Part shown: in pieces, positions 6,830-47,155 of the stretch
Layout: every line of letters starts with the position of its first letter
Position numbering within the stretch: the first letter of the stretch is position 1
Source: Duganella sp. Root336D2
Lineage (GTDB): Bacteria > Pseudomonadota > Gammaproteobacteria > Burkholderiales > Burkholderiaceae_D
Direction of reading: 5' to 3'
Length of the DNA: 64,000 nucleotides
NCBI RefSeq assembly: GCF_001425005.1
Contig: NZ_LMDB01000001.1
Span: 622,393-686,392 of the forward strand
Notes under the pieces: generated by a model
The model's database searches: none
The model's input: the letters and a program-made list of their open reading frames with translations, nothing else
Told to the model about the DNA's origin: nothing
Position numbers and translations under genes: made by a program

Positions 6830-8368
6830 CTACTCAGTCATATTGATCGCCAGCAGGTCAAGCGCTGACAGGAATTGTTCATACGCCGCGGCGTCAGGCG
6901 CCTGCAGCAGCGCCAGTTCCACCGCGCCCAGCAGGCGTCCCCGCAACTGGACTGGCGCCAGCAGCAGGGCGCCCGGGTTTGCGCCGCCCAGGCCGGAGCG
7001 GATGCTCCATGCGGCGCCCGCGGCGCCGGCGCCGACGATGCGCGCCTGGCGTTCCAGTGCGCATTGGCCAAGCAAGCCCTCGCCCAGCGCCAGGTGTTGC
7101 GGCGGCGCCGTGCTGGCATAGCTGGCGGCCAGCGCCAGGCCGTTCGCATCGGCGCCGTAGATGGCGCCCTGCATGGCGCCAAACAGCCGATGGCATTGAT
7201 CGAGGAAGGCTGCAAGGCGGGCTTGGCGATCCTCAGCCTGCTGCATCTGCAGCGCCACCTGGGCCAGCTGCATCTTGCGTTCGGCGCGCAGCTCCTGCTC
7301 CTGCGCCACGCGTTCCAGTTCGACATGGGCGCGCTGCTGCGCCGCCTGGCTGCGCACGGCGCGCAAGCCGGCCGCCCCGAGCAGGACCACCACGGCCGCC
7401 GCCATGGCCGCGGCCGGCACGCCGCTGCCCGCAGGCACGCTCTGGCCCAGGTCTTCCAGCACCACCAGTTGCCAGCTGCCGGATGGATCGTGCCAGTCGA
7501 CGGTAGCCGAAGCCACCGCATAATGCCGGCCCTCAGCCGTCACCATGCCCGGCGCGATATCGAGCGGCAGCCGGCGCGGCTCCCTCTCTTCGAACAGCTT
7601 GCCGAACTGGCGCACGGCGCGGATTTGCGCCACCCTGGCCAGCGTCACCTCGCCCGCCAGCATGCCGCGCCATTCGCGGCGGCTGCTGGCGAACACCACG
7701 CCCTGCGGCGACAGCAGGATGGCGGCCTGGCCGCTGCGCGCCAGCAGGCGCTCGAGCTTTTCCATGTCGGTGCGCGCCACCACCACCCCAACCGGATCGC
7801 CGCTGCGCGCCATGCCGGCATACACTGGCGCGGCAAAATACAGGGCATGGTCGCCGCGCGCCAGGCTGACGGCGGCGTAGATATTGTTGCGCCCGGCCAT
7901 CGACTCCTTGTAATAGGGACGGAAGCGCACGTCGATGCCGGTCGACGGTCTTCCGCTTTCGTCCCAGGACGATTTGACGAAGCCATCCCGGCCCACCACG
8001 AATAAACCCTGGATTTTCTGGCTGCGGGCGACGTTTTCCAATAAGGCCAATATATTCGGCTGGTTGGGGGGAATTGGCTCGGTGCTTTCCTTCTTGATAT
8101 CCGGCTCAATCAATCCGAGCAGGGAAATCGCCCCCATCAAATTACTGTCCAGCGTTAATGACATGGCAGAAATTGCATCGCGCTGGACATCGATATTCAA
8201 TAATTCCAGCCGTCCCCGTTCCAGGTTATCGCGGTAGCGGCTGCCGGCCAGCGAGGCCGCCGCCATGGCCAGCAGCGTGACCACGGCCCAGGCGCGCAAG
8301 GGATGTTTTGCAATTCTCTCAATTACCAACATGGCAAATTTCAAGAAGGAAATATTATCGAATAACAA
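6830..8368 (-). CDS. Cache-GAF membrane sensor protein without an output domain
   Basis: The 512-residue product has a transmembrane helix at about 27-43, a periplasmic region of about 270 residues resembling a double Cache sensor (YYKESMAGRNNIYAA region), a second membrane helix at about 322-342, a coiled coil and a C-terminal GAF domain (about 385-505). The GAF motif LGEGLLGQCALERQARIV closely resembles that of the downstream kinase. No histidine-kinase, GGDEF or methyl-accepting domain follows. It is the first gene of the minus-strand unit, so it probably senses a small molecule and influences the neighbouring hybrid kinase. M13 (MLVIERIAKH) is an equally plausible start. Confidence 0.8.
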   Translation of the reverse strand: MLFDNISFLKFAMLVIERIAKHPLRAWAVVTLLAMAAASLAGSRYRDNLERGRLELLNIDVQRDAISAMSLTLDSNLMGAISLLGLIEPDIKKESTEPIPPNQPNILALLENVARSQKIQGLFVVGRDGFVKSSWDESGRPSTGIDVRFRPYYKESMAGRNNIYAAVSLARGDHALYFAAPVYAGMARSGDPVGVVVARTDMEKLERLLARSGQAAILLSPQGVVFASSRREWRGMLAGEVTLARVAQIRAVRQFGKLFEEREPRRLPLDIAPGMVTAEGRHYAVASATVDWHDPSGSWQLVVLEDLGQSVPAGSGVPAAAMAAAVVVLLGAAGLRAVRSQAAQQRAHVELERVAQEQELRAERKMQLAQVALQMQQAEDRQARLAAFLDQCHRLFGAMQGAIYGADANGLALAASYASTAPPQHLALGEGLLGQCALERQARIVGAGAAGAAWSIRSGLGGANPGALLLAPVQLRGRLLGAVELALLQAPDAAAYEQFLSALDLLAINMTE

Positions 8369-8533
8369 TACCAGTATTCCCGCCGTGCGTGCCGCACGCC
8401 ATGGTTTTTATTGTTCAGTTGCGCATGATTGACGTTTGCTGGACGAGTTAACCCGATAGTGATATTGTCCATATTTAGAATATTGCTCTTGATCCAGCAT
8501 TATTCCGCCCCGAACGAACGCACCAATCCGACC

Positions 8534-9400
8534 ATGTTCAAGAAAATAACCGCAGCCCTGCTGATGTCGATCTCCGCAGCCGCGTTTGCCGTGCCTTTGG
8601 GCTCGCAAGCCGTGCTTGTCGTCGAGGATGAGACCGGCAAAGTGCTGGTCGAGAAGAACGCCACCGCCGTTGTTCCGATCGCCTCCCTCACCAAACTGAT
8701 GACCGCAATGGTCGTGCTCGACTCCAAGCTTGATATGGAGGAGCAGATCAGCATCGACAAAGACGACGTCGATACGCTCAAGCACAGCACCTCGCGCGTG
8801 CCGGTCGGCGCCACCATTTCGCGCGGCGAATTGCTGCAGCTGGCGCTGATGTCCTCCGATAACCGCGCCGCTGCCGCGCTGGCGCGCACCTTCCCGGGCG
8901 GCCCGGCCGCCTTTACCGCCGCCGTCCATGCCAAGATCCAGCAGCTTGGCATGAGCAGCACACAGATCGATGAACCGACCGGCCTGTCGCCTAACAATAC
9001 ATCGAATGCAGCCGACCTGGTGAAAATGGCCGCGGCCGCCGCCCAGTACCCCGAGATCCGCCGCATCACCACCGATACCGAGGAAGTGATCAATATGAAA
9101 GGGCGCATGGTGCAGTACCACAACACCAATCGCCTGGTCGGCGCCAAAGGCTGGGATATCGGCCTGTCCAAGACCGGCTATACCGAAGAAGCGGGCCGCT
9201 GCCTGATCATGCGCATCACCGAAGCCGGCCGCGCCGCCACCCTGGTCCTGCTGAACGCCGGGGGCAATTCGGCGCGCCTGATGGATGCGCTGAACATCCG
9301 CCGCCTGCTGGCCGGCGACAACGCACCCAAAGTGATGAAAGCATCGAGCCCGCGCAAGAAAGCAGTGCGCACAACGGAACGCCGTCGCCGCCGCATGTAA
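8534..9400 (+). CDS. pbpG: D-alanyl-D-alanine endopeptidase (PBP7 family)
   Basis: Starting at the ATG at 8534 gives 288 residues with a typical signal peptide (MFKKITAALLMSISAAAFA); the open frame extends further upstream but without export features. The serine-peptidase S11 motifs are complete: S51-L-T-K54, S108-D-N110 and K213-T-G215. The protein should act in the periplasm on meso-diaminopimelate-D-alanine crosslinks of peptidoglycan. The C-terminus is arginine-rich (TTERRRRRM). Its next neighbour, a sensor kinase, starts 33 bp downstream on the same strand. Confidence 0.93.
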   Translation: MFKKITAALLMSISAAAFAVPLGSQAVLVVEDETGKVLVEKNATAVVPIASLTKLMTAMVVLDSKLDMEEQISIDKDDVDTLKHSTSRVPVGATISRGELLQLALMSSDNRAAAALARTFPGGPAAFTAAVHAKIQQLGMSSTQIDEPTGLSPNNTSNAADLVKMAAAAAQYPEIRRITTDTEEVINMKGRMVQYHNTNRLVGAKGWDIGLSKTGYTEEAGRCLIMRITEAGRAATLVLLNAGGNSARLMDALNIRRLLAGDNAPKVMKASSPRKKAVRTTERRRRRM

Positions 9401-41841: not shown

Positions 41842-44490
41842 ATGCTGCTCGAGCGCGAAAGGCAATTGCAGGATTTGCAGCGGCTTGCCAGCCGCGTTAG
41901 CTCAGGTGCGGGCGGAATGGCCCTGGTGCTGGGTGAAGCCGGCATCGGCAAGTCTTCATTGCTGCAAGCCTTTGCTGCGCCGTTGAAGGGCGAGTTCTTC
42001 GTCCTGCAAGGCGCCTGCGAAGACCTGTCCACGCCGCGCGTGCTCGGCCCCTTGCGCGACTTCGCGCCTGCTTTGGGTGCGGACGTGGTGTCCACCATCG
42101 ATAACGCGGCCAGCCCCGATATCCTGATGCCTATGCTGCTGGGCCACCTGGCCGCCCAACCGCGGCCGGTGCTGGTGATGTGCGAGGATTTGCATTGGGC
42201 CGACCAGGCTACGCTGGACTTGCTCAAATACCTGGCCCGCCGCATCGCCGACCAGCACATCATGCTGTTGGCCAGCGCCCGCAATGACGAGCTGCCGCCC
42301 GACCACGCCTTCTGGCGCTGGGCCGGCGACCTGCCGCCAGCCAGCACCCAACGCCTCGACTTGCCGCCTTTGTCGCCCGACGCTGTCGCCACGCTGGCGC
42401 GCGACACCGATTGCGATCCCTGCGAGTTATACCGCGTCACCGGCGGCAACCCCTTCTTCCTCTCCGAACTGCTGACCGACTGCAGCCGTGATCCCGGCCA
42501 TTTGCCTGCCTCGGTACGCGACGCCGTCTGGGCACGCACATCCCGTCTGGAGGCTGAGGTGCGCACCGTGCTGGAACTGGTCAGCGTCAGTCCCGTGGCC
42601 CTGGAGGAGCGCCTGCTGGAAACCTTGCTGGGCGACGATGGACACGACGTGATCGACGCCAGCGTCGATAGCGGCTTGCTGCAGCGCGCCAGTCCCGGCC
42701 TGTTGTCGTTCCGCCACGAACTGGCGCGCCAGGCGGTGTTGAGCGGCCTGCGTCCCGGCGCCACGCGCGCCCTGCACAAGCGCTTGTGCAAGGCCTTGAC
42801 CGAACAGGCGCCGGCCCATGCGCGCATTGAACTGGCACGGCTGGTGCATCATGCGACCGGGGCCCAGGATGCGCACATGGTGCTGCAACTGGCGCCGCGT
42901 GCAGCCCGCCAGGCGGCACGGCTGGGCGCACATCGCCAGGCAGCGGCCCACCTGGCCAGCGCCCTGCAATTCGTCGACGCGGTAGGCTGGACCGGCGAAG
43001 CTGCCCAGCTTTACGAAGACTGGGCCTACGAAGCGGGCCTGCTGCGCATCGACGAGCGCCTGATTGAAGCACGGCAGAAAGCCATCGCCCTGTGGCAAAG
43101 CGTGGAGCGCCCGGACAAGGTCGGCTTGAACCTGCGCTGGCTGGCGCGCACCCACTGGTACCGCGGCGAAGCGAAAGAAGCCGAGCGCTATGGACTGGAG
43201 GCGATCCGCACGCTCGAGCAACTGCCAAACAGCAAAGAGCTGGCCATGGCCTACAGCATGCGTTCCCAGCACCAGCTGTTGCAGGACCATCCCGCATCGG
43301 CCATCGAGTGGGGCCGGCTGGCGCTGGAACTCGCGACGGCGCTCGATGACCATGACACCCGCGTCCATGCGCTGACCAATATCGGCAGCGCAAAACTGTT
43401 CCTGGGCGACGACAGCGGCCAGCAAGACCTGGCCGAGGGACTGCAATGCGCCCTGGAGCAGCACCTGCACGAACACGCGGCCCGCATTTACAGCAACTGG
43501 GTTGAATTTTCTGTCGTATTCAAGCAGTTTGCACTGGCCGAACGCCTGCTGGCCGAAGGATTGGCCTATCACTGCGAGCATGAGCTGGACGCCTGGGTGC
43601 ATTACCTGACGGGCTGGCAGGCGCAACTCCACCTCGACAAGGGCGAATTTGCCCAAGCCGCCGCGCTGGCACGGCAGGTGCTCGCCCTGCCCGACCTGAG
43701 CCTCGTGATGCGGCTGCCGGCATTGACGGTACTCGGGCGTACCCTGTCGCGCCAGGGCGGGCAGGATGCCGTGCGCTGCCTGCAGGAAGCACTGCAATGG
43801 GCGCGCGCCACGGGCGAATCGCAACGCTTGCTGCCGGTGCTGCTGGCCCTCACCGAAGCGGCCTGGCAAGTGCAGGACCTGGAGAGCTGCCGCCGCTGGC
43901 TGGGCGAAATCGGGCAATTCGACCTGTCCGGCGTCAACGCATGGGACCTGGCGGAAGTCGGTGCCTGGCGGCGCCGGGTGGCCGTGGCAGCCCGGCCAGA
44001 TGGCGAACAGGCTGCAGCAGCCCCGCCGCCGCGCGCCGCGGAGGCAGCCGGCAACGGCCAGGCCGCGTGCGACAACTGGCTGGCACTGGGACTGCCGTTC
44101 GAGGCGGCGCTTGCCCTGCTTGACCTGCCTGGCGATGCTGCCGCGCAGGCCATGCCCAAGGCCGTCGCGCTGCTGGAACAGATCGGCGCCGCGCCGGCAG
44201 CTGCGCTGGCGCGGCAGCGCGCCCGCGCCTGCGGCGCGCAAGCGCAGTTGCCCAAGTCGCGGCGCGGCCCGTATGCGGCGGCACGCGAACACCCGAGCGG
44301 CCTGACGCGCCGCGAAGCCCAGGTGCTGGAGCTGCTGCTCGATGGCCTCAGCAACCTCGAGATCGCCCAGCGCCTGTGCCGCTCCGAACGCACCGTCGAA
44401 CACCACGTTTCAACCCTGCTTGGCAAACTGGGCGCCACCACGCGCCTTGACCTGCTGCGCCGCTCGCCAGCCCCACTACATAAAATTTAG
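41842..44490 (+). CDS. Large ATP-binding LuxR-family regulator (LAL/MalT-like)
   Basis: The 882-residue protein begins with an AAA/STAND ATPase (Walker A GEAGIGKSS at 31-39; Walker B-like PVLVMCEDLHWADQ), has a helical TPR-rich middle and ends with a LuxR helix-turn-helix (about 815-875: GLTRREAQVLELLLDGLSN). MalT-like regulators of this length bind an inducer and ATP and then activate sugar or secondary-metabolite genes. It lies between the TonB receptor and the putative RiPP cassette, which begins 149 bp downstream; it could control either. Confidence 0.92.
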   Translation: MLLERERQLQDLQRLASRVSSGAGGMALVLGEAGIGKSSLLQAFAAPLKGEFFVLQGACEDLSTPRVLGPLRDFAPALGADVVSTIDNAASPDILMPMLLGHLAAQPRPVLVMCEDLHWADQATLDLLKYLARRIADQHIMLLASARNDELPPDHAFWRWAGDLPPASTQRLDLPPLSPDAVATLARDTDCDPCELYRVTGGNPFFLSELLTDCSRDPGHLPASVRDAVWARTSRLEAEVRTVLELVSVSPVALEERLLETLLGDDGHDVIDASVDSGLLQRASPGLLSFRHELARQAVLSGLRPGATRALHKRLCKALTEQAPAHARIELARLVHHATGAQDAHMVLQLAPRAARQAARLGAHRQAAAHLASALQFVDAVGWTGEAAQLYEDWAYEAGLLRIDERLIEARQKAIALWQSVERPDKVGLNLRWLARTHWYRGEAKEAERYGLEAIRTLEQLPNSKELAMAYSMRSQHQLLQDHPASAIEWGRLALELATALDDHDTRVHALTNIGSAKLFLGDDSGQQDLAEGLQCALEQHLHEHAARIYSNWVEFSVVFKQFALAERLLAEGLAYHCEHELDAWVHYLTGWQAQLHLDKGEFAQAAALARQVLALPDLSLVMRLPALTVLGRTLSRQGGQDAVRCLQEALQWARATGESQRLLPVLLALTEAAWQVQDLESCRRWLGEIGQFDLSGVNAWDLAEVGAWRRRVAVAARPDGEQAAAAPPPRAAEAAGNGQAACDNWLALGLPFEAALALLDLPGDAAAQAMPKAVALLEQIGAAPAAALARQRARACGAQAQLPKSRRGPYAAAREHPSGLTRREAQVLELLLDGLSNLEIAQRLCRSERTVEHHVSTLLGKLGATTRLDLLRRSPAPLHKI

Positions 44491-44639: not shown

Positions 44640-44894
44640 ATGGAAGAGCTGCGCCACATCAATTCCAAGAAAAACCATATCAAAATCGTCGTCAGCGAAG
44701 GCAAGGTCACACTGGAAGAACTGCATAAGGCACTCGATATCGCCGTTGCCCAGATGGTGCCCAAGGGCGGTTGCAACTGCGGCCTGACGGGTTTCGACCT
44801 GACCTTCCTGCGCGGCGACCCGTCGATCGGCCGCGTGCTGCGCGAGGTGCCGCACATCGAAGGCGCGGTGCTGGAAAATGAATTCCGCGGCTGA
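44640..44894 (+). CDS. Putative RiPP precursor peptide with a Cys-Asn-Cys core
   Basis: The 84-residue product is charged and helical at first (MEELRHINSKKNHIKIVVSEG ... about 1-38), then has a short segment KGGCNCGLTGFDLTFLRG (residues 42-59) holding its only cysteines, C45 and C47, and a tail ending ENEFRG. It has no signal peptide or membrane helix. A GGAG ribosome site lies 8 bases before the ATG. It overlaps the DUF692/MNIO gene by 17 bp, and a partner-type gene follows, which is the order expected for a precursor. I recognise no characterised family. Alternatives are a small regulatory or metal-binding protein. Confidence 0.7.
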   Translation: MEELRHINSKKNHIKIVVSEGKVTLEELHKALDIAVAQMVPKGGCNCGLTGFDLTFLRGDPSIGRVLREVPHIEGAVLENEFRG

Positions 44895-45756
44895 ACTGCT
44901 TTCGCCTGCCCCACGCCCTGCCTTGGGCGTGGGCGTCAGCTACGAGGGGCGCGATCCGGCCTTGCTCGAGATGATGCTGCCGCACGTCGACATCATCGAA
45001 GTGACGCCGGAAACCATGTCGGTGGCCGACGGCGACAGGATTTCGCTGGACCAGGGCATCCTGGCGGAACTCAAAAATATCGACCGCGAGAAAACCATCG
45101 TGGTGCATGGGGTCAGCCTGTCCATCGGCTCGCATGACGGCTGGTCGCCGACCTACCTTCATTTACTGGATGAACTGATGGACCAGGTGCGGGTGCGCTG
45201 GCACAGCGAACACCTTGGCTACACGCGGGTCGACGGCGAACACCTCGGCATCATGCTGGCCATGCCGCGCACCGAGCAGGCCGCGGAGCTGGTGGCGCAA
45301 AGGGCCTGGTGCCTGCAGCAACGCTACGGCCTGCCCTTCCTGCTGGAGAACATCGTGCACGTGGTTCCCGACTGCCCTGCCGACTACAGCGATGCCGGCT
45401 TCCTGAACGCGGTTGCACGCGACAGCGGCTGTGGGCTGATCCTGGACGTGTACAACCTGGAATGCGATGAACATAACCACGCGCTCGATATCCACGCCTT
45501 CCTCGCGGAACTCGATGGCCGCCATGTGAAAGAGCTGCATGTCGCCTGCGGCGTGCAGCATAACGGCCTGATGCTGGACGTGCATTCGCGCCTGCCGCGC
45601 CCCTGCACCATGGACCTGGCGCAGCAGGTACTGCGCGAAGTGGCGACCGAGGCGGAGGTGATCGTGTACGAATTCATGCCGGAAGCCGTGCCCGGCCTGG
45701 GCAATGCGGCTATCGCAAACACCCTGCAGCATATGCGGCAACGAGAATGGAGGTAG
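44878..45756 (+). CDS. DUF692/MNIO-family multinuclear iron oxidase
   Basis: The 292-residue TIM-barrel protein belongs to the family of MbnB, TglH and ChrH, which use two or three iron ions to rearrange cysteine or other residues of a ribosomal peptide. Ligand-bearing motifs are kept: HGVSLSIGS (H77), WHSEHLGY (E111, H112), LLENIVHVV (E157), LILDVYNLECDEHNHALD (D190, N200, H201), ELHVACG (H221) and LDVHSRLP (D234, H236), and an acid in VYEFMPE (E265). Its start lies inside the end of the small cysteine peptide gene, so the two are translationally coupled. The predicted substrate is that peptide; the chemistry is unknown. Confidence 0.88.
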   Translation: MNSAAELLSPAPRPALGVGVSYEGRDPALLEMMLPHVDIIEVTPETMSVADGDRISLDQGILAELKNIDREKTIVVHGVSLSIGSHDGWSPTYLHLLDELMDQVRVRWHSEHLGYTRVDGEHLGIMLAMPRTEQAAELVAQRAWCLQQRYGLPFLLENIVHVVPDCPADYSDAGFLNAVARDSGCGLILDVYNLECDEHNHALDIHAFLAELDGRHVKELHVACGVQHNGLMLDVHSRLPRPCTMDLAQQVLREVATEAEVIVYEFMPEAVPGLGNAAIANTLQHMRQREWR

Positions 45757-45758
45757 AC

Positions 45759-46367
45759 ATGGACCTGGCCAGCCACCAGCGCATCCTGCTTGGCCTGATG
45801 CGCGCCACTTACCAGCCCGGCGCCGCCGACGCGCCCTATTACCACCGCATTGCAGGGTCACCGGACTTGCAGGAAGCGCGCGGCAACGTGCTCTTATGGC
45901 GCATCTATGTGCTGGAGCGCACTTGCGTGCTGACAGTCGAATTGCTGCGCCAGGCCGATTTGCTGGAAGACGCGCTGCAAGCTTTCATCCGGCAGGAAAA
46001 CATTTCGCCGTTCCGCGAATACCAGCCGCTGGCCTTCCTCGATTTCCTGGCCGGCCACGAAGACCCGCTGGTGGTGTCGGTATCCCGGTTCGAACTGGCC
46101 CTGATGAAGGTGCGCGAAGGAGATCCTTGCCGCTACATGGTGGACTGGAGCTACGACCCCGCACCGATCCTGCAAGCGCTGGCGCAGCGGGAGGCGCTGC
46201 CGGATCGGGCCGAGCCCGACCTGCACCGGACCGAGATCTCGGGCGAACTGCCTTACTTGTTCGAGATGAAAAGGCTGGCGCGCGATTCGGCGAACGAGCG
46301 AAGCAAATTCCACACGGCCCTGACGCGCGGCAGCCTGTACAAGTCGACCGGCGCCACCAGCCAGTAA
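45759..46367 (+). CDS. Probable partner protein of the MNIO enzyme (DUF2063/MbnC-like)
   Basis: The 202-residue protein has a helical N-terminus (HQRILLGLMRATYQPG), an ERTCVLTVELLRQ region, and EYQPLAFLDFLAGHEDPL followed by SRFELALMKVREG. That pattern (a FxxFL element then an RFExAL helix) resembles DUF2063 and MbnC partner proteins, which dock the precursor peptide to MNIO enzymes; similarity is weak. The ATG at 45759 is preferred over 45747 because GGAGG lies 5 bases upstream, inside the last codons of the MNIO gene. Its last 115 bases overlap the convergent LysR gene. Confidence 0.65.
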   Translation: MDLASHQRILLGLMRATYQPGAADAPYYHRIAGSPDLQEARGNVLLWRIYVLERTCVLTVELLRQADLLEDALQAFIRQENISPFREYQPLAFLDFLAGHEDPLVVSVSRFELALMKVREGDPCRYMVDWSYDPAPILQALAQREALPDRAEPDLHRTEISGELPYLFEMKRLARDSANERSKFHTALTRGSLYKSTGATSQ

Positions 46368-47155
46368 GCGCGCTCCACGAACACTTCGTCCTGCAGCACC
46401 GGCACCAGGCGGCCATCGGTCGCCATATACGGCGGCGCCATCATCAGGCCCAGGCCGGCGGCGGCGGCTTCGGCCTGCGCCAGCATGCCGGTGCAGCACA
46501 GGCGGCGGCGCGGATTCACGCCCAGTTCATCGAGGAAGTTCAGCTCGTTGCTGGCCAGCCGGTCCTGCACGTAGTCGACAAAGTCGTGCCCTGCCAGGTC
46601 GCTGCGCTTCAGGATCGGCGCGTGGCGCGCCAGGTAGTCGGGCGAACCGTACACATAGAGGCGGAAGGACGCCAGGCGCGTCACCATATAGCGCCCGGTG
46701 TTGGGCGCATCGAGCGTCACGCCAAGATCGGCCTCGCGGCTGGCCAGGTTGGCGAAGCGCGGCTGCACCAGCAGATCGACCGACAGCTCAGGATAGTCCT
46801 GCAGGAACTGCGCCAGCAGCGGCGTGATGAAGCGTACGCCCAGGGCTTCCGGCACGCCCAGGCGCACCACGCCGCGAATCGCGACTTCGGTGCCGGACAA
46901 CTGGCCTTGCGCGGCCAGCACCGCGCTTTCCATCGCCTCCGCATGCGGCAGCACCGCATGCCCCATCTCCGTCAGTTCATAGCCTTCGCGCGAGCGGTCG
47001 AACAGCGTGGTGCCCAACTGCTGTTCCAGGCGGTCGATGCGGCGCGAGACGGTGGTGTGCTCCACCTCCAGCCGGCGCGACGCCCCGGACAGGGTGCCGG
47101 AGCGCGCCAGCTCCAGGAAGAAGCGCAGGTCAGTCCATTCGGGCAGTGTTTTCAT
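46253..47155 (-). CDS. LysR-family transcriptional regulator
   Basis: The 300-residue protein has an N-terminal winged helix (DLRFFLELARSGTLSGASRRL, EHTTVSRRIDRLEQQLG) and a LysR effector-binding domain (GVVRLGVPEALG, PRFANLASREADLGV). Length is normal. It is divergent from the alpha/beta hydrolase operon across a 137-bp gap containing the 16-bp palindrome, so it probably controls itself and that operon. An identical palindrome before the TonB receptor suggests a wider regulon. Its 3' end overlaps the MNIO partner gene by 115 bp. Confidence 0.92.
   Translation of the reverse strand: MKTLPEWTDLRFFLELARSGTLSGASRRLEVEHTTVSRRIDRLEQQLGTTLFDRSREGYELTEMGHAVLPHAEAMESAVLAAQGQLSGTEVAIRGVVRLGVPEALGVRFITPLLAQFLQDYPELSVDLLVQPRFANLASREADLGVTLDAPNTGRYMVTRLASFRLYVYGSPDYLARHAPILKRSDLAGHDFVDYVQDRLASNELNFLDELGVNPRRRLCCTGMLAQAEAAAAGLGLMMAPPYMATDGRLVPVLQDEVFVERAYWLVAPVDLYRLPRVRAVWNLLRSFAESRASLFISNK

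Follow-up and report, generated by a model that had tools for sequence, protein, structure and literature searches.

A predicted adjamnio-1-type peptide modification cassette in Duganella sp. Root336D2, with an MNIO that appears to lack one acid of the Glu-x-Asp pair

The stretch of DNA analysed here (the window) comprises 64,000 nucleotides (nt) of contig NZ_LMDB01000001.1 from the soil bacterium Duganella sp. Root336D2. Positions 44640–46367 of its plus strand hold three open reading frames (ORFs), which encode in order a small peptide, an MNIO (DUF692) enzyme and an MNIO partner protein (Table 1). The peptide and MNIO genes overlap by 17 nt. An ATG at 45747 would give the partner gene a 10 nt overlap with the MNIO gene, and an alternative ATG at 45759 leaves a 2-nt gap; the latter is the likelier start because it is preceded by GGAGGT and because the start of several relatives agrees with it. 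The first-pass annotation had described three overlapping plus-strand genes, of which the ORFs and the first overlap stand, while the second overlap probably gives way to the gap. A sigma-70 promoter scan found no promoter.

Table 1. Coordinates of the features discussed in the text (positions in the window, or in the named locus).
Feature	Position	Strand	Basis
Putative precursor/substrate peptide, adjamnio-1 type, 84 residues	44640..44894	+	ORF call, 12-row alignment, low-confidence model
Conserved core, peptide residues 43-61, GGCNCGLTGFDLTFLRGDP	44766..44822	+	Alignment
MNIO (DUF692) enzyme, 292 residues	44878..45756	+	PF05114 match, alignments
MNIO partner, PME-type 2-like, TglI-like predicted fold	45759..46367	+	Predicted model; longest ORF (206 residues) from 45747
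Convergent overlap of partner 3' end and LysR-type regulator gene	46253..46367	.	Coordinates, 115 nt
Small ORFs before sister MNIOs	L048:1260-1505, L049:1257-1520, L094:2538-2942, L095:1429-1731		CxxC-K-SG[FL][DE] or CACLSG

The peptide carries a single CxC motif, C45-N46-C47, and its N-terminus shows no hydrophobic signal stretch when the sequence is judged by eye; the first-pass annotation had described it in the same way, as an 84-residue precursor with one CxC and no signal peptide. Searches against Pfam, NCBIfam and PDB sequences gave no significant match. The motif CNCGLTGFD, whose conservation that annotation had proposed to check, is invariant in 12/12 peptides of a 12-row alignment in which some rows begin a few codons away from the true start. 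Counted over 11 rows, invariant positions make up 16 of the 19 residues at 43–61 and 12 of the 30 at 13–42, none of the 12 at 1–12 and one of the 23 at 62–84. An alignment-based model (predicted local distance difference test, pLDDT, 56) places a strand at residues 13–18, a helix at 25–39, the CNC loop, a second helix at 61–68 and a second strand at 73–79.

The pathway put forward by the first-pass annotation as possibly new is already predicted in print: from the same gene arrangement, Antoine et al. (2025; PMC12452194) gave its precursors the name adjamnio-1. In that paper, cluster #1 of an MNIO sequence similarity network is associated with signal-less precursors, named adjamnio-1, and with PME-type 2 partners, and the representative given is WP_073215760 of Massilia sp. 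CF038. The CF038 genome holds four MNIO loci, three of them with bufferin-type precursors bearing a signal stretch, which leaves L009 as the expected adjamnio-1 representative; the accession is tied to L009 by genome and elimination, not by sequence. The L009 peptide is 69% identical to that of the window over 78 residues, and its MNIO 70% identical. A product for the family was not found in the literature searched, which covered few subscription journals, nor was the name adjamnio met there outside PMC12452194.

When a single genome of each species was scanned, an approach that detects close relatives only, ten loci came up, in Duganella (2), Massilia (3), Pseudoduganella (2), Ramlibacter (1), a Terriglobia metagenome-assembled genome (1) and Granulicella (1). 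Nine loci were found in 294 genomes of the same family, namely the window's own, seven already present in the species scan by place and identity, and one new (L021). The peptide was present in one of 369 genomes of the class, which was the window's own, and in an Acidobacteriota sample it matched 2/396 genomes, one being Granulicella itself. The other match, in G868 (E 0.003), was marginal and was rejected as chance; the ORF has no CxC, no MNIO was present in the part of the genome read, and the protein presumably resembles a macrodomain protein. A plasmid search with the peptide gave no match.

Peptide, MNIO and partner genes are adjacent and in the same order in all 12 distinct genomes that have the peptide, a co-occurrence far beyond chance. 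The precursor-MNIO-partner architecture recognised by the first-pass annotation thus holds throughout, and both the MNIO gene beside the small gene and the conserved cysteines, whose absence it had named as evidence against a pathway, are kept in 12/12 genomes. One of the 12 loci, L012 (6001–7669 of CP087969.1, Massilia sp. H-1, genome G238), has broken frames in all three genes and is weak evidence, since its genome is scored 48% complete; the breaks are probably assembly errors and not decay. It was left out of alignments A2 and A3 for this reason, and L008 was left out of A3.

The surroundings of the trio were compared for 11 loci (L021 not among them), using ORFs of at least 90 residues, matches above 100 bits and flanks of 6 kb per side where contigs allowed, those of L011 and L013 being shorter. 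The whole neighbourhood is syntenic in six Duganella-type loci (the window and L004–L008), and the Massilia loci L009 and L012 share a few genes. Across the five unrelated contexts, Duganella-type, Massilia, Ramlibacter and two Acidobacteriota, only the trio is common, and no exporter, peptidase or regulator shared by the contexts was found in the flanks compared or among the ten neighbours scanned for families.

The MNIO scores 155 bits against PF05114 (curated cut-off 25). Its NCBIfam scores of 134.9 bits for BufB, 118 for HvfB, 60 for ApyH, 45 for ChrH and 35 for MbnB are all far under the equivalog cut-offs (310, 360 and 325 bits for BufB, HvfB and MbnB), which makes it a member of none of these groups. 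Two more MNIO loci in the same genome lie much closer to the PF05114 profile, at 367 and 323 bits. Nine iron ligands are known in TglH, namely the Fe1–Fe3 ligands H71, H107, E151, D184, N187, H216, D229 and H231, and as the ninth E258 (PMC10880893). In the printed TglH alignment the first eight map directly to H77, H112, E157, D190, N193, H221, D234 and H236, and these residues together with E265 are invariant in 7/7 rows of alignment A4 (adjamnio-1 and three of the sister enzymes described below). The ninth depends on the alignment register, as E265 falls on the ligand Glu in a profile-profile alignment and two columns off in the MAFFT and TglH alignments. Judged from these alignments, eight of the iron ligands are kept and the ninth probably is, in line with the first-pass annotation of a DUF692/MNIO enzyme with its iron ligands.

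Where E-[RW]-D enzymes have a Glu-x-Asp pair, the MNIO reads E265-F266-M267. The same E-F-M occurs in 11/11 adjamnio-1 MNIOs, and five sister MNIOs read E-F-H, E-F-H, E-L-L, E-M-I and E-Y-H (E-x-D in 0/5); E-[RW]-D is present in 9/9 aligned bufferin-type rows and in 17/17 comparison enzymes, which were picked for that motif. The profile-profile alignment sets M267 on the Asp of the pair. The register of E265 is disputed, and two alignments speak against this placement, MAFFT by setting E265 opposite the Asp and the TglH alignment by setting the ligand Glu258 opposite residue 263. The first register seems to us the better one, because the hydrophobic residues leading up to the Glu (VTFE, VVYE, AILE) then match gap-free, whereas the MAFFT register would put Glu in place of Asp and leave the enzyme without its ligand Glu. 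As aligned, one acid of the pair is missing in either register, and the likelier one puts Met at the Asp position. In FonB, the Asp next to Phe250 has been proposed as the base, and its replacement by Ala abolishes activity (PMC12668002); by our reading of that text, this Asp249 probably corresponds to the last residue of the E-[RW]-D motif. TglH is described as having no residue like the catalytic Asp of MbnB and as using an essential Asn73 instead (PMC10880893), a site that is Val79 here (H77-G78-V79 vs H71-S72-N73). Because the Glu-x-Asp pair is not intact and the Asn73 site is Val79, the active site would be of neither the thiooxazole-MNIO nor the TglH kind.

For the same reason, the Glu-x-Asp pair of thiooxazole-forming MNIOs not being intact, 5-thiooxazole should not be assumed as the product. 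The cassette might nonetheless make an ordinary captophorin- or bufferin-like product that differs merely in not being secreted, with Cys converted to 5-thiooxazole and copper buffering as its role. BufB and HvfB do give the top NCBIfam scores of the MNIO, far as these are under the cut-offs, and Gly follows C47, FonBC being reported to prefer a small residue after Cys (PMC12668002). We nevertheless regard this as an unlikely outcome, given that the peptide has no Sec signal stretch, the partner has no DUF2063 signature, and the Asp of the broken pair is essential in FonB (PMC12668002).

The partner had no match in Pfam or NCBIfam at E values up to 1, so it lacks the DUF2063 signature, and no significant match among PDB sequences. 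Its predicted model (pLDDT 80) has as best PDB structure match TglI of the TglHI holoenzyme (8hci_A, probability 1.00, E 5e-3, template modelling (TM) score 0.47), followed by a weak match to NGO1945/3dee, a DUF2063 protein (probability 0.44, E 1.2). On this model the partner is a TglI-like, PME-type 2 protein, that is, one with a DUF2063-like fold without the Pfam signature. The DUF2063/MbnC-like label of the first-pass annotation was not borne out, since neither that signature nor a match to MbnC was found. The model ends in a disordered tail of 26 residues, whose coding stretch overlies the end of the convergent LysR gene (46253–47155, minus strand). The L009, L011 and L013 partners lack this tail, and L010 and L021 have other tails; it seems to have been overprinted on the LysR gene in the Duganella-type lineage.

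More distant relatives were sought with an adjamnio-1 MNIO profile in 297 Acidobacteriota genomes and with a mixed profile in 119 genomes of one order. Among the matches read, five relatives (L047, L048, L049, L094 and L095) lacked the E-[RW]-D motif; lower-scoring MNIO matches were read in part, and the motif script saw no MNIO frame in 13/31 loci. A tree of 33 MNIOs, built without TglH, ApyH, ChrH and MbnB, sets the adjamnio-1 enzymes and these five sisters on one side of a 100/99 branch and the 17 E-[RW]-D enzymes, chosen by the motif script and cut after the motif, on the other. The adjamnio-1 MNIOs form their own branch with 100/100 support, L116 and L095 sit on long branches, and L096, L098 and L116, three of the 17, are not bufferin-type. 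At L096 (1155–1319), shortly before an E-R-D type MNIO, we observed a 54-residue ORF with a leader-like stretch (LEELEQKIAPG) and a Cys/Gly-rich end (CGGCSGCALPGCSTC), which looks like another RiPP (ribosomally synthesised and post-translationally modified peptide) precursor.

The ORF before each sister MNIO encodes a cysteine motif of its own: CAGCKSGFD (L048), CNACKSGLD (L049), CPGCKSGFE (L094), CACLSGTIE (L095) and CEACGRIAYLD (L047). Four of the five show C-x(1,2)-C-x(1,2)-[ST]-G, like adjamnio-1, with L047 breaking the motif, and three of the five keep [FL][DE] four and five residues past the second Cys. At four sister loci an ORF of 148–210 residues without known family occupies the place of the partner. 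In a shuffle test the motif arose by chance in 0.055–0.075% of cases per peptide, a figure that is descriptive only because the four peptides tested were the source of the motif; L094 (CPGCKSG) took no part in drawing it. Homology between the adjamnio-1 peptide and the sister CxxC peptides found no support (profile comparison probability 1.1% for L048 and L049), so only a shared motif is claimed.

These loci also bear on whether the peptide is a substrate at all. It might instead serve the MNIO-partner complex as a small accessory subunit or as a metal chaperone, with the real substrate encoded elsewhere; its core varies little from Betaproteobacteria to Acidobacteriota, as expected of an enzyme subunit, and the authors of the family list call it hazardous to treat unknown ORFs as precursors when these show no distinctive features (PMC12452194). 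We consider this improbable, as the precursor-MNIO-partner order is strictly kept in bufferin systems (PMC12452194) and different CxC/CxxC peptides stand at the same place in the sister loci.

Our preferred reading is that the MNIO and its partner probably modify a small protein at its CNC site, that this protein is kept in the cell, and that bufferins are no safe guide to the chemistry. The trio would then form an adjamnio-1-type modification cassette complete in itself, with the 84-residue peptide as its substrate. The N-terminal strand (HIKIVV) may dock on the partner, which would work like the TglI / PME-type 2 recognition subunits, while the CNC loop would enter the MNIO active site. By analogy with work on MbnB and HvfB (PMC13419390), one Cys thiolate would there bind the mixed-valent diiron centre, and O2 would drive oxidation of the bound Cys or its neighbourhood. 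What results would most likely be a small protein that stays inside the cell and uses its altered CNC site in metal binding or redox chemistry, and not a secreted, proteolysed natural product. The analysis shows the association of the genes, their conservation, most of the iron ligands, the loss of one acid of the pair and, by prediction, the fold of the partner. Modification of the peptide is inferred here from gene association only, and the order of binding, the site at Cys, the identity of the product and its retention are inferences too.

Several points, in addition to the disputed register of E265, weigh against this reading. The CNC loop has a pLDDT below 50 and the peptide model as a whole is weak, which makes the description of the peptide as a folded small protein uncertain. 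The peptide could also be processed by general proteases or exporters encoded at other places in the genome, and a neprosin-domain gene, which we take to encode a peptidase type, lies upstream of the Granulicella trio L013 (4026–5489, minus strand), although on the other strand and in none of the other contexts. The whole core is conserved, not the cysteines alone. ApyH oxidises a C-terminal Asp while the essential Cys of its precursor stays unmodified (PMC11117315), a precedent by which Cys may be the handle here and F52 or D53 the target.

This precedent leads to a further alternative, in which the Cys pair only anchors the substrate to the iron and oxidation by the MNIO falls on a non-Cys residue of the core (F52, D53 or N46). 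The Cys of ApyA is required yet unmodified, and it is an Asp that is converted there (PMC11117315). In the present peptide F52 and D53 are invariant, with [FL][DE] at like spacing in the three sister peptides noted above, and the MNIO aligns to the ApyH profile nearly to its C-terminus (residues 67–286 of 292). The target in ApyA is however the C-terminal residue, whereas the core here is internal, and we regard this alternative as rather unlikely.

Returning to modification at the CNC site, a more specific proposal can be made, though we advance it tentatively and think it somewhat less probable than its negation. An MNIO branch without Glu-x-Asp, found beside signal-less C-x(1,2)-C peptides (usually with [ST]G), may install a Cys-derived group unlike thiooxazole or oxazolone-thioamide, the product being an intracellular metal/redox protein. 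If so, adjamnio-1 would be the CNC arm of this branch, and an intracellular MNIO-modified protein would widen the role of MNIOs beyond secreted copper binders. MNIO oxidations are unusually diverse and many branches are uncharacterised. With the iron site kept and one acid of the base-holding pair lost, the product would test how active-site residues set the outcome of an MNIO reaction, and a cassette of only three genes, whose putative 84-residue substrate has a single CxC, makes an easy target for reconstitution.

The neighbours of the trio in the window include a TonB receptor, a LuxR-type regulator, the LysR regulator and an alpha/beta hydrolase with a weaker S33-peptidase-type match, and an import-type ABC transporter with a periplasmic binding protein lies at least 1.8 kb downstream. 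No dedicated exporter or peptidase adjoining the trio was found among the window neighbours scanned, in agreement with the first-pass annotation. An 882-residue AAA/TPR/LuxR-type regulator is encoded on the same strand at 41842–44490, 149 nt upstream of the peptide gene; it was rejected as a member of the cassette, being kept only in the six wholly syntenic Duganella-type loci. The ten neighbours scanned outside those loci (Massilia, Ramlibacter and Acidobacteriota), two of which had no family, include an RPE65-type oxygenase, a 2-oxoglutarate (2OG) oxygenase and UreD near L009, enolase-like and LysR genes near L010, sigma-70 region 4 and hydrolase genes near L011, and the neprosin gene near L013. 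In L009 the trio is followed by the 2OG-Fe(II) oxygenase gene (8213–8917) and in L012 by a stretch 85% identical to it (7672 on), with no match in the other contexts; in this lineage the oxygenase could have the product of the trio as its substrate.

Among known systems, adjamnio-1 as described in PMC12452194 has the same signal-less precursor with a Cys motif directly before the MNIO and a PME-type 2 partner, and no difference was found between that description and the present locus. The Acidobacteriota sister peptides (L048, L049, L094 and L095) are likewise small, without evident signal stretch, and stand before an MNIO without E-[RW]-D; their second Cys lies one residue further in three of the four, and their remaining sequence is unlike. 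They possibly correspond to the CxxC adjamnio-7 type of PMC12452194, or may form a new group. TglH/TglI of the 3-thiaglutamate (pearlin) pathway share the iron ligands, the ninth of them probably, and the predicted partner fold, and both enzymes are without the MbnB-type Asp (PMC10880893), but the essential Asn73 of TglH is replaced here, and TglH works on a Cys that TglB appends to the C-terminus (PMC10880893), with no such enzyme among the neighbours scanned. BufABC, HvfABC and FonABC resemble the trio in gene order, in MNIO family and, with the same limit on the ninth, in iron ligands, whereas bufferins and captophorins are marked by Sec signals, partners with the DUF2063 signature, several Cys motifs and E-[RW]-D, none of which is present here (PMC12668002, PMC13419390). 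The methanobactin system MbnABC is more distant, with an MbnB score of 35 bits against the cut-off of 325 and no MbnC match for the partner. To the family already in print, the present analysis adds the broken Glu-x-Asp pair, the TglI-like fold predicted for the partner, and the grouping of these MNIOs with those beside CxC/CxxC-SG peptides.
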